Below are positions 945 to 29,455 of a stretch of 64,000 nucleotides of DNA, one piece after another (position 1 is the stretch's first letter; each line of letters begins with the position of its first letter). The position numbers and the translations under genes were made by a program. Below the pieces are notes generated by a model. The model searched no databases and was not told the DNA's origin. It saw nothing but the letters and a program-made list of their open reading frames with translations. Source of the stretch: Shewanella eurypsychrophilus (GTDB lineage: Bacteria; Pseudomonadota; Gammaproteobacteria; Enterobacterales; Shewanellaceae); assembly GCF_007004545.3 (NCBI RefSeq), contig NZ_CP045503.2:1210501-1274500 (forward strand), read 5' to 3'.

Positions 945-1287
945 TATTCTTGTAAATCAGCAAGTGTAGATGCAGCTGCGAGCTTCGATTTCAGGGCCAA
1001 AAATGTTCCATACATTTTTCGGCATTTCCCACATCCGTGTGGGTCAGATGAAATCGCAGAGCCCACAGGGCCAATTTTATTCCATACAAAATTTGGCATT
1101 TCCTCCATCCGTGGAGGTCAGAGTGCTTGCGGCGACTCGCAGAACCTTCTCAAAGAAAAGAGCGCACATACCTCGCCGGACAGGTGTTAAACAAAAATGA
1201 AGATACGACCTTCAAACACACTTCCAAGTATCGAAGTAAGCCAAATGAACCAAAGTAAAAATGTATCTAGCTTCATTCGAAGCTAGA
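945..1287 (+). repeat. Hairpin repeat family, copy R3, with two inserted 51-bp modules
   Basis: The head motif is at 947-975 and the tail ends at CTTCATTCGAAG (1271-1282). The outer hairpin is GATTTCA (987-993) with TGAAATC (1049-1055). Two equal-length 51-bp modules (997-1047 and 1071-1121) interrupt it, each placed after GGG and before A. Each module folds into two hairpins separated by CATTTCC. The copy abuts the stop codon of the 206-aa gene (1283), so it forms that gene's 3' flank. Confidence 0.75.
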
Positions 1288-1903
1288 GCTGTTTTTGATA
1301 GATCCCTTCAGCGTCATCGGCGAGCTCAAAGCCGATGTTGAATAGGTACTCTTTGTGTTCTACGGTTGCCGCTTTTGCGATGAGGGTATTAACCCCACGC
1401 TGTTTAATCTCATCGGGGTGTGAGACAAAGTAATAATTTGCCAGTTTGAAGTCTCGATATTGTGGGGTGACATAGTCGAGCAGAATAGAGAGTTCACCCT
1501 TGTCATTATTGTTGCCAACTAATACACCGGCAATGCTGTTATCTCTTAGCATATAAAACGCTGTATTGGCCTTTCCGAGCTCACAGAGTGATGTCTGTGT
1601 CTCAATATCGGCCAGGTTTTCTGAGATAAAGTGGTCAAAATATTCAGTATTGACAGAGGCGGCAATCAGCTTGAACTGCTCATCGGTTGAATAAAATTTC
1701 CATAAATAATATACGTTTATTCCTGCTATACCTAAGTTCATAAACATCGTCGGGTAAGAGTTTATAAGGTAAGCAAAGCCTGCGAAGGCAAGGCAGCCAA
1801 CTAGGTTGATCAACCTCAGTTTTTTTATTGATGTCATTGTTAGAGAAACGAGGACGATTAACGACGCCAGATAACCAAACCACTCCACCCAATTAAAATC
1901 CAT
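1283..1903 (-). CDS. YgjV-family membrane protein fused to an acetyltransferase-like domain
   Basis: The 206-aa protein has a hydrophobic N-terminal half with about three membrane segments (near residues 8-27, 33-48 and 52-70) in the style of the YgjV inner-membrane family. The C-terminal half (about 85-206) resembles a small GNAT fold, with an ending of the LFNIGFELADDAEGIYQK type seen in acetyltransferases. The substrate is not predictable. An AGGGATA ribosome site precedes the ATG. The fusion suggests an enzyme tethered to the inner membrane. The last 43 codons exist again, nearly identical, at 455-587, and a structured repeat lies right after the stop. Confidence 0.75.
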   Translation of the reverse strand: MDFNWVEWFGYLASLIVLVSLTMTSIKKLRLINLVGCLAFAGFAYLINSYPTMFMNLGIAGINVYYLWKFYSTDEQFKLIAASVNTEYFDHFISENLADIETQTSLCELGKANTAFYMLRDNSIAGVLVGNNNDKGELSILLDYVTPQYRDFKLANYYFVSHPDEIKQRGVNTLIAKAATVEHKEYLFNIGFELADDAEGIYQKQL

Positions 1904-6526: not shown

Positions 6527-6919
6527 ATGAACAAGAGTCATCCAACTTTATATGTCCTTTATGATGGAGCCTGTCCTCGTTGTCTCAAGGACCGAGATAA
6601 CTACTTACGTGTAGCGGGGAAGTATGCCACGGGAGTGAACTGGTTCGATATCACAGATCAGGGTGTTCAGCTAAAGGCTTGGGGGATAGATCCGTTTCAG
6701 GCACTAACAGAGCTACATGTGATCATTGGCGAGTGTGATGATATTGATAAGCCAATAGTGGTGTCTGAGCTGGATGCATATATCATTTTAATGAGTAGGG
6801 TGCCAATGTTGCAGCCATTTGCTTGGTTAATTGGGCGAAAGTGTATCCGGCCGTTATTATCAATCTTGTACCGTAGGGCTGTTTATAGGCGGCTTAAATG
6901 CGAAGGAAGGCTAATGTGA
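6527..6919 (+). CDS. DCC-family (DUF393) thiol-disulfide oxidoreductase-like protein
   Basis: The 130-aa protein begins LYVLYDGACPRCLKDRD, the DGxCxxC motif that names the DCC family, a predicted thioredoxin-like redox group of unknown substrate. The C-terminal half (PMLQPFAWLIGRKCIRPLLSILYRRAVYR) is the usual amphipathic, membrane-near ending. The ribosome site is weak. The short VOC-type gene starts 14 bases after its stop, so the two may be co-transcribed. Confidence 0.85.
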   Translation: MNKSHPTLYVLYDGACPRCLKDRDNYLRVAGKYATGVNWFDITDQGVQLKAWGIDPFQALTELHVIIGECDDIDKPIVVSELDAYIILMSRVPMLQPFAWLIGRKCIRPLLSILYRRAVYRRLKCEGRLM

Positions 6920-6932
6920 ATGGTGGCTATAG

Positions 6933-7211
6933 ATGACGATTGCGCTGACTCATATCGCTTTGCACGTTGAGGATGTTTCTGCTTGCGTCGATTTCTATGC
7001 TTCATATGCTGGTATGCAAGTTATACATGAGCGTCCTTGCGGTCACAGCTCTGAGCTTTCTCGTAGTAATAACCCTGTTTGGCTTGGTAAAAACAGAATC
7101 GTCTGGCTGAGTGAACCGGGGCAAGAGTCACAATTTATTATTGTGCTAATTCCCGGAGGAAGAGAGCATAAACAGCAGATGGATGATTATTCCCATCTCA
7201 GTCAATATTAA
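6933..7211 (+). CDS. VOC (glyoxalase)-superfamily protein, apparently truncated
   Basis: The 92-aa product begins IALTHIALHVEDVSACVDFYASYAGMQV, a complete first beta-alpha-beta-beta-beta module of the vicinal oxygen chelate fold, including the first metal-ligand histidine (LTHIALHV). The second module stops after DDYSHLSQY, where full-length relatives (about 125-140 aa) normally continue with HLGFAV. The bases after the stop do not encode the missing part in any frame I could recognise. It is therefore probably a decaying gene rather than a sequencing frameshift, and activity is doubtful. Confidence 0.6.
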   Translation: MTIALTHIALHVEDVSACVDFYASYAGMQVIHERPCGHSSELSRSNNPVWLGKNRIVWLSEPGQESQFIIVLIPGGREHKQQMDDYSHLSQY

Positions 7212-7440
7212 AACTAGCAAAATAATTCCAGATTGAAAGTCTCGTTCTCCATATTTATCGTTTTGTAATAAGCTAATTATTTTTAACTACATAGCTTATT
7301 ATTAACCCTTGAATATTAACGTCTTAGGCTGACTTGTCTTTCCCCGGGTTTTCCTTGTGGTTTGATGTGTAGTCACGTGTCTAGTTTGGTTAGACTAACT
7401 GATGTATTATCAAACAGGAAACCAGTTTTCGAGGATTTTT

Positions 7441-8040
7441 ATGTTTGAAGCCATGACTGCTCAGAGTCGTTTTGTTCCTGATTTAGATTGTATCGATCTA
7501 CATAATGAAAGAGTGAGTGAACTCGTGACGATATTATCGCAAGCTATTGGTTTGGCCGAGCAAAAGATAAAAGAGTTCGCCTGGGCGGCGCGGGTTCATG
7601 ATGTCGGTAAACGATTTATCTCTGAGGATATTAGAAATAAGCCAGGTAAATTAAGCCAGCCTGAGTTCAATAAGATGCAAGCACACTGTGTGGCGGGATA
7701 TCAGATGCTCTACAGATTAGGTTATGACGAGATCTTTCTGAACACAGCTTTATATCATCACGAAAATTGGGATGGTTCAGGGTATCCTGATGGTTTGAGA
7801 GAAGACAATATTCCGTTAGAAGCGCAGGTATGTTCTATATGTGATGTATATGAAGCCCTAAGAGCCACTCGCTGTTATAAAGCCAGTAAGACGCATAAAG
7901 AAGCTGTGAAGATAATATTGGCTCTGTTTGGTTCAAAGTTTAACCCAAAGCTTAGGCCATTTTTTGTTAAAGCCCTGCCTGAATTTGAGAAGCTAGAATC
8001 CCTGATATTAGCAGATAGCCAAGCTCAGTTAAGCGTTTAG
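7441..8040 (+). CDS. HD-GYP domain protein, probable c-di-GMP phosphodiesterase
   Basis: The start at 7441 (199 aa) follows GAGGA at 7431-7435; an upstream ATG at 7402 lacks a comparable site. The domain is complete and stands alone: HDVGK (VHDVGKRFI), then HHENWDGSGYP with the GYP signature, then DVYEAL. HD-GYP enzymes hydrolyse c-di-GMP to GMP. No receiver or sensor domain is fused. Together with the REC-EAL protein at 21764 and the riboswitch at 29339, it shows an active c-di-GMP network. A strong shared terminator follows. Confidence 0.9.
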   Translation: MFEAMTAQSRFVPDLDCIDLHNERVSELVTILSQAIGLAEQKIKEFAWAARVHDVGKRFISEDIRNKPGKLSQPEFNKMQAHCVAGYQMLYRLGYDEIFLNTALYHHENWDGSGYPDGLREDNIPLEAQVCSICDVYEALRATRCYKASKTHKEAVKIILALFGSKFNPKLRPFFVKALPEFEKLESLILADSQAQLSV

Positions 8041-28966: not shown

Positions 28967-29338
28967 ATTTAGGTCTCTAGCCGAGAGTTACGAGTCGCTA
29001 GAATCTAGTCATTAGAAGCAAAAAATAGAGAGTGGGTATTGCCTAGAGTGATCCCGCTTTTTTCTTTGTTTTTATCCTAAAACTCATTTTTCTTATGTTA
29101 CTTCATTCAATTTATTGTCAGTTTTAGATATCTTTCCTCAAATCGTATTTAGTGAAATATTCCTGTTTAGATATATTCCCCTTCTTAAAATCTTGCCAAA
29201 CGTTAGATTGTTAACTGTTTAAACCATTAATAATCATTGCTTTGCGTTAATGTAAAACTAGGAGTTGCATTTTTGTGCAACTTAAGTCTATGCTAAATAA
29301 GTGATGACAGCGTTGTCATTGCTCTGTGTAAATTTTGA
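28967..29338. other. Non-coding region upstream of the riboswitch
   Basis: The first 50 bases hold a CTAG-rich patch (CTCTAGCCGAG, GCTAGAATCTAG). The rest is AT-rich and should contain the chitinase promoter, though I could not fix its -35 and -10 boxes with confidence. No ORF is credible here. Confidence 0.5.
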
Positions 29339-29455
29339 ATGAAAGGCAAACCAATCGAAAGGTTGGGACGCAAAGCCACCGGTCTAAGGGGATAGTATTG
29401 AAAAGGTCGCATTTTCAGTGTTATCGCAGTACCTAAGATAGCGGGGATGTTTCAG
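29339..29455 (+). ncRNA. GEMM-I cyclic di-GMP riboswitch upstream of the chitinase gene
   Basis: The aptamer shows the family signature in order: AGGCAAACC at 29343, a P2 hairpin CCAA-TCGAAAG-GTTGG with GAAA tetraloop, GGACGCAAAGCCACCGG, and the 3' landmark AAGATAGCGGGG at 29435. The P3 helix is extended by 14 pairs including G-T wobbles (29391-29404 with 29412-29425, loop GGTCGCA). GEMM-I RNAs bind c-di-GMP and control chitin and motility genes in vibrios and Shewanella. It lies about 150 bases before the chitinase start. Confidence 0.93.

Follow-up and report, generated by a model that had tools for sequence, protein, structure and literature searches.

A 51-bp twin-hairpin repeat seated in hairpin tips of Shewanella genomes: a candidate very small mobile element

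Two neighbouring modules in the genome of Shewanella eurypsychrophilus are copies of a repeated 51-bp twin-hairpin element, which confirms an observation made earlier from the sequence alone (the sequence-only reading). The small size of the module, the drift of its stems and its place in the tips of other hairpins suggest a very small mobile element. Probably, though by no means certainly, the modules represent a non-autonomous mobile DNA element of 51 bp that inserts at hairpin tips and is moved by an enzyme acting in trans on folded DNA.

Materials and Methods

The window, i.e. the whole stretch of DNA analysed here, comprises 64,000 nucleotides (C1:1210501-1274500) of a 5.85-Mb genome. A covariance model (R1) was built from 25 own-genome copies (set A1). 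These were selected from 39 pattern matches, 14 of which were dropped as unrelated, truncated or nested; modules 1 and 2 of the window are both among the sequences used. The carrier set comprised 41 of 42 near-full copies found among 148 nhmmer matches (one with a foreign insert was dropped). Copies for the empty-site, flank and joint tests were collected with a pattern allowing up to four mismatches (n=111), and copies for the flank-identity and bulge tests with the same kind of pattern over 307 loci (n=192); neither set consists of independent events because close relatives are among the copies. Whether two copies share a genome was taken from the record grouping. Genomes with at least 20 scored modules are called element-rich (43 of the 146 family genomes). 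Reverse transcriptases and IS110 were surveyed in 36 hand-chosen genomes, namely 20 of the 43 element-rich ones and 16 with zero or one module.

Results

Direct reading of the sequence bears out that 997-1047 and 1071-1121 align without gaps, that both are preceded by GGG (994-996 and 1068-1070) and followed by A (1048 and 1122), and that the loops TTCCATA and TCCG as well as the linker CATTTCC are the same in both. The five paired changes described in the sequence-only reading are real: in hairpin 1 three A-T pairs became T-A, and in hairpin 2 one C-G pair became T-A and one A-T pair became C-G. Two differences had been overlooked. In module 2, the G-C pair that adjoins the hairpin-1 loop is replaced by A.C without compensation, and the bulge base is not constant (C versus T). 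Comparison with the hosts gives an insert length of 51 bp, for which 996-1046 and 997-1047 are equally valid because one G is common to both. Module 1 is placed here at 996-1046 on the forward strand (R1 match 992-1052, 86.3 bits; joint against empty sites). Its hairpin 1 spans 996-1023, with the loop TTCCATA at 1006-1012 and the bulge at about 1020 (fold and family covariation), and its hairpin 2 spans 1028-1043, with the loop TCCG at 1034-1037 (fold, family covariation and nested copies), both on the forward strand. Module 2, the second copy, lies at 1070-1120 on the same strand, with 1071-1121 equally valid (R1 match 1066-1126, 73.4 bits). Folded as DNA, modules 1 and 2 beat their dinucleotide shuffles with z of -6.60 and -3.45, respectively, none of 200 shuffles being as good.

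Module 1 fills host hairpin A (CGATTTCA ... TGAAATCG, 986-1056, forward strand), whose empty counterpart at L103 of a different genome is 94% identical over 89 nt. Module 2 fills host hairpin B (CAC ... GTG, 1064-1125, forward strand), which was read from the sequence and is imperfect here; its empty counterpart (L102) shows 87% identity over 84 nt with one gap at the joint. Both belong to a carrier repeat at 964-1142 (forward strand; delimited by eye and by carrier covariation), with an outer 5' arm at 964-973, an inner stem at 976-982 and 1136-1142, and an outer 3' arm that is unrecognisable here. Another copy of the carrier, empty at both tips, lies at 650-739 on the forward strand, its hairpin A at 672-691 and its hairpin B at 700-709. 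Positions 447-587 and 1275-1415 form a 141-nt direct repeat (96% identical), in which the gene at 1283-1903 (reverse strand) has its 3' end duplicated across the repeat cluster, and a tandem 13-bp unit, TCGAGCAAAGGGG, borders the duplicated gene end at 585-610. Outside the repeat region, a c-di-GMP-I riboswitch at 29335-29454 (68.1 bits) is the sole Rfam match in the window at or above gathering score.

The modules belong to a large family. A query of 211 bases around them found 49 places in the own genome, where R1 gave at least 72 matches (E<=0.1); 25 of these places built R1, and the nesting of copies makes some of the matches overlap on opposite strands. R1 matches occur in at least 123 of the 146 Shewanellaceae genomes (E<=0.001) and, in the order, in at least 58 of 295 genomes and at least 14 of 99 genera (E<=1e-4). 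All module counts are lower bounds, with up to 150 candidates scored in the own genome, up to 37 per genome in the family survey and up to 18 in the order survey. A strict exact pattern occurs in 64 named stretches, 63 from Shewanella and one from Thalassolituus. Degenerate patterns yielded 111 matches for hairpin 1 and 98 for hairpin 2 in four genomes, and 0 when read backwards. A same-strand R1 match encloses 110 of the former and all 98 of the latter; the lone exception (G133, 5943040) is a hairpin-1 pattern beside an opposite-strand R1 match, and one own-genome pattern match sits in a weak R1 match of 47 nt.

The consensus reads GYC, a 7-nt arm, TTCCNKA, an arm of 8 or 9 nt, GRC, ATTYCC, a second stem of 6 bp with a TCCRT-like tip, and GGTCA. 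Hairpin 1 has its bulge on the 3' side, where the arm exceeds its partner by one or two nucleotides, in 142 of 149 distinct copies; the 5' arm is longer in four copies and the arms are equal in three. At L113, L114, L121 and L131 we noticed by eye that terminator-like T-runs precede a TGTCTGGAACA(T/C)TTATG motif, which resembles (also by eye) one half of an opposite-strand hairpin 1.

Covariation of the stems is strong. In the 25 copies of set A1, 93.5% of the stem cells are paired against 77.7% after shuffling, changes on both sides affect 11 of 16 pairs (54 cells versus 15.3 shuffled), and pairing falls to 33-47% when the partner is slid by one to three columns. A larger alignment (A2; input 85 loci), which was fitted to the model and hence favours its structure, holds 129 aligned matches (101 distinct) with 93.5% of the stem cells paired against 75.4% shuffled. 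The covariance-model search of Shewanella proposed in the sequence-only reading has thereby turned up further copies with paired stem changes: in the 101 distinct rows of A2, 13 of 16 pairs are affected, and 271 cells are changed on both sides against 83.8 shuffled. The claim that structure and not sequence is conserved is supported by the covariation over these distinct copies.

The hosts of the modules are often larger multi-hairpin repeats, and host and insert covary in like manner. Over the 41 copies of the carrier set, hairpin A is paired in 97.6% of the cells against 68.7% shuffled (both-side changes in 93 cells versus 34), the inner stem in 91.6% against 75.0% (50 versus 14), hairpin B in 88.3% against 67.2% (35 versus 11) and the outer stem in 95.4% against 91.2% (19 versus 3). 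Another carrier family (L092-L099, G088) holds the module in ACTGCAT..GATGCAG; an adjoining segment of about 45 bases is present or absent there.

The module is a discrete insert of 51 bp. An empty counterpart, i.e. a match of the joined flanks elsewhere in the loci collected, with up to five gap positions tolerated at the joint, was found for 85 of the 111 copies. Control cuts gave 80 and 83 of 111 when shifted by -5 and +5, 66 and 71 at 10, 13 and 14 at 30, and, far off, 3 of 111 at -100 and 16 of 110 at +100. Since slightly shifted cuts also match, the joint itself was tested, and it is this test that provides the sharp evidence: among 47 gap-free 51-bp pairs, 44 fit best (or tied for best) at shift 0 and 45 at +1, and no other shift was best in more than five. 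The insert shows no target duplication, or one common G. One locus (L102, G133) contains both a filled and an empty carrier (93% over 161 nt). The dnaN-recF region was rejected as a clean empty site; a longer stretch was gained or lost there, not 51 bp.

A fixed insertion target, as postulated in the earlier reading on the basis of GGG^A, is likewise supported, yet the target is more than that: it is the CANG|GATG tip of a host hairpin. The host flanks mostly read CANG|GATG at the joint. Among 74 distinct copies, flank-flank pairing at stem positions 4-6 amounts to 0.69, 0.69 and 0.53 versus 0.48, 0.35 and 0.33 shuffled, and at positions 1-3 and 7 it is little above shuffled. The same arrangement exists in other families of the order, e.g. 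TGCCATG|GATGGCA in L208. The 10 loci in which one host hairpin is filled, two of them the same place, represent one place in the own genome (G000) and eight in G088; in a genome from a different family this hairpin stands empty, at two places of L211. Family-wide, the tip of hairpin 2 comes close to the insertion target in reverse complement. Five of the 129 matches, with lengths of 111-114 nt, enclose an opposite-strand module (L005, L011, L017, L019, L129); the inner copy is placed in the second hairpin of the outer copy, at the tip and in opposite orientation.

From sequence comparison we infer movement of the modules. Among the 192 copies, 20 pairs show at most one difference in 51 and an ungapped flank identity below 45% on both sides. 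Four of these pairs are within one genome, e.g. the L212 copies, which lie 652 bases apart and outside the Shewanella carrier. Relaxing the search to at most four differences, with small shifts allowed, gives 199 pairs with near-identical modules and unrelated flanks, 26 of them within one genome; about 173 are between genomes, and a single carrier family with its two hairpins is involved in many. Fully identical modules with both flanks below 60% identity were not found among the 192 copies, so that very recent movement is not shown.

Discussion

The mobile-element reading would work as follows. The element would insert into DNA hairpins at a tip with the sequence CANG|GATG. Its mover would recognise shape, bulge, loops and end motifs and not the stem sequence, and for this reason the stems could drift freely. 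Movement may proceed via folded single strands of DNA, as with HUH enzymes of the IS200/IS605 type or others, and the enzyme would presumably be supplied in trans; the bulge and the fixed loops resemble the substrates of TnpA-REP and IS608/ISDra2, and with moderate confidence this likeness favours a folded-DNA enzyme in trans. Because hairpin 2 would present a similar target on the opposite strand and every insertion would bring more hairpins, elements would stack within each other. We extend this only tentatively, and lean slightly against the extension, to a bacterial class of "shape-read" mobile DNA that would build nested repeats in Shewanella and other gammaproteobacteria, would be moved by a candidate folded-DNA enzyme, and would have left the covarying carriers as older products of the same process.

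Two rivals do without a DNA transposase. In the first there would be no dedicated mobility at all: gene conversion or template switching between repeats would use the 4-base matches CANG and GATG, and quasi-palindrome correction, not selection, would keep the stems paired. Many copies do occur within one carrier family, no fully identical pair of modules among the 192 copies had unrelated flanks, and the paired changes would then require no selection. Other hairpins nevertheless hold inserts too, as do other families of the order, and the four same-genome pairs with one difference in 51 have unrelated flanks; the fixed length, the 3' bulge (142/149) and the constant loops and ends suggest recognition. 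We regard gene conversion as unlikely. Somewhat less probable still is a structured RNA, or an element moving through RNA by reverse insertion and reverse transcription, as has been proposed for some cyanobacterial repeats. The strong covariation would suit it, and some copies come after terminator-like sequences (by eye). In an RNA fold, G.U is expected above A.C. Over all 16 module pairs G.T does exceed A.C (54 versus 40), but with the two bulge-side pairs excluded the module holds 1269 Watson-Crick, 31 G.T, 34 A.C and 34 other cells, and this near-equality of G.T and A.C favours DNA hairpins over RNA. The hint at transcripts in the sequence-only reading is accordingly less favoured. In the carrier, G.T is above A.C (92 versus 21; 40 versus 18 minus two near-fixed pairs), so that the carrier may fold as RNA or as one strand. 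At gathering score, Rfam gave no match in the repeat region, the four weak matches within 250-1450 having E values of 0.48-2.8. Reverse transcriptase (RVT_1) was rejected as the mover; it is missing in 6 of 20 element-rich genomes and present in 6 of 16 poor ones.

A RAYT (Y1) transposase moving an element of the REP/REPIN type would account for bulged hairpins in many copies, and Y1_Tnp (PF01797) is present in 84 of the 146 family genomes, with two genes in the own genome. Against this, the GTAG or CGTC tag is missing from the consensus, and 12 of the 43 element-rich genomes lack a PF01797 match. Among 34 stretches around 32 Y1 genes a module was present in two, one each and on a single side, at about 0.7 kb from the gene in L157 and about 4.8 kb in the 10-kb stretch L031; 16 further RAYT-like loci, picked by length and with a weaker Pfam score, contained 0 modules. 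With these counts RAYT/Y1 was rejected as the mover, and we consider the REP/REPIN reading very unlikely. L031 itself carries at 6731-7472 (G000:C1:1090817) a RAYT-like Y1 frame of 247 codons with no module directly adjoining. The least probable reading, in our opinion a far-fetched one, is a mini-element that descends from IS110/IS1111 transposases or is mobilised by them. Two IS110 types (at L224-L228 and L233-L235) do use like hairpin tips: 5/5 copies of the type in G130 lie in the tip of carrier hairpin B, and 3/3 copies of the type in G000 lie in hairpin 2 of module-like repeats, one right flank diverging. Their ends, however, are unlike the module (by eye), and two other types, G048 (4 copies) and G000B (3), are away from such tips in a tally that leaves out types G000C, G000D and G030. 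IS110, which 7 of 20 element-rich genomes lack and 9 of 16 poor genomes have, was rejected as the mover.

Exact patterns, which divergent ends could escape, revealed in four genomes no autonomous version in which the two hairpins flank a gene. One strict exact pattern gave 0 viral contigs, and no plasmid match was obtained at E 1e-5. The replication-strand bias, with the terminus taken as opposite the origin, is weak (84 vs 49 of 133 places in four genomes, p 0.003); it is significant in only one of the four genomes and confounded by gene direction, and G000 contributed 57 of its 72 matches.

If the mobile-element reading is right, the module would be a very small bacterial mobile DNA unit whose target is set by hairpin shape, and a bacterial counterpart of the mitochondrial double-hairpin elements. 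The many filled and empty Shewanella sites make the question of movement testable. A rule of hairpins in hairpin tips would also help to read the confusing nested intergenic repeats of these genomes.

A published description of the 51-bp element was not found in the literature searched, which was largely without subscription papers. Insertion sequences that target palindromic repeats are known, and two IS110 types use the module's kind of tip; the module differs in that it carries no gene and has ends unlike theirs. Set beside a mini-element of the IS200/IS605 group (PATE type), the module shows the absence of target duplication, the fixed target and the bulge; its strand bias is weak, G.T is about equal to A.C, and exact patterns in four genomes revealed no autonomous tnpA partner with the module's hairpin ends.

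Judged by analogy, the nearest kinds appear to be the mitochondrial double-hairpin elements, the cyanobacterial small repeats and the REPINs. REPs and REPINs are short hairpin repeats in many copies, some of them bulged (PMC3733652, PMC8266576), GTAG repeats are reported from some Shewanella species (PMC3733652), and the TnpA-REP, IS608 and ISDra2 enzymes read hairpin bulges and mismatches (PMC8266576). The module is likewise a short hairpin repeat in many copies (at least 72 own-genome matches), but its 25-copy consensus is without a GTAG or CGTC tag and it has little or no RAYT linkage. By the features compared, it is not a REP/REPIN.

The cyanobacterial small dispersed repeats (Elhai 2008) are said to be very small (reportedly 21-27 nt) and mobile, with compensatory stem changes and nested insertions. 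Compared by description only, the module shares the compensatory changes and the self-nesting; in contrast to these repeats, it measures 51 nt, has two hairpins, is gammaproteobacterial and has a hairpin-tip target.

We know of no explanation for the mover of the mitochondrial double-hairpin elements. These elements of Allomyces and fission yeasts are small, have two hairpins and are potentially mobile (PMC10085805, PMC5910586), those of fission yeasts being GC-rich (PMC10085805). The 51-bp module is likewise small, has two hairpins and shows evidence of mobility, which is a likeness of form. The double-hairpin elements are organellar and have other sequences, and it is on the module's side of the comparison that hairpin-tip targeting and self-nesting are shown.
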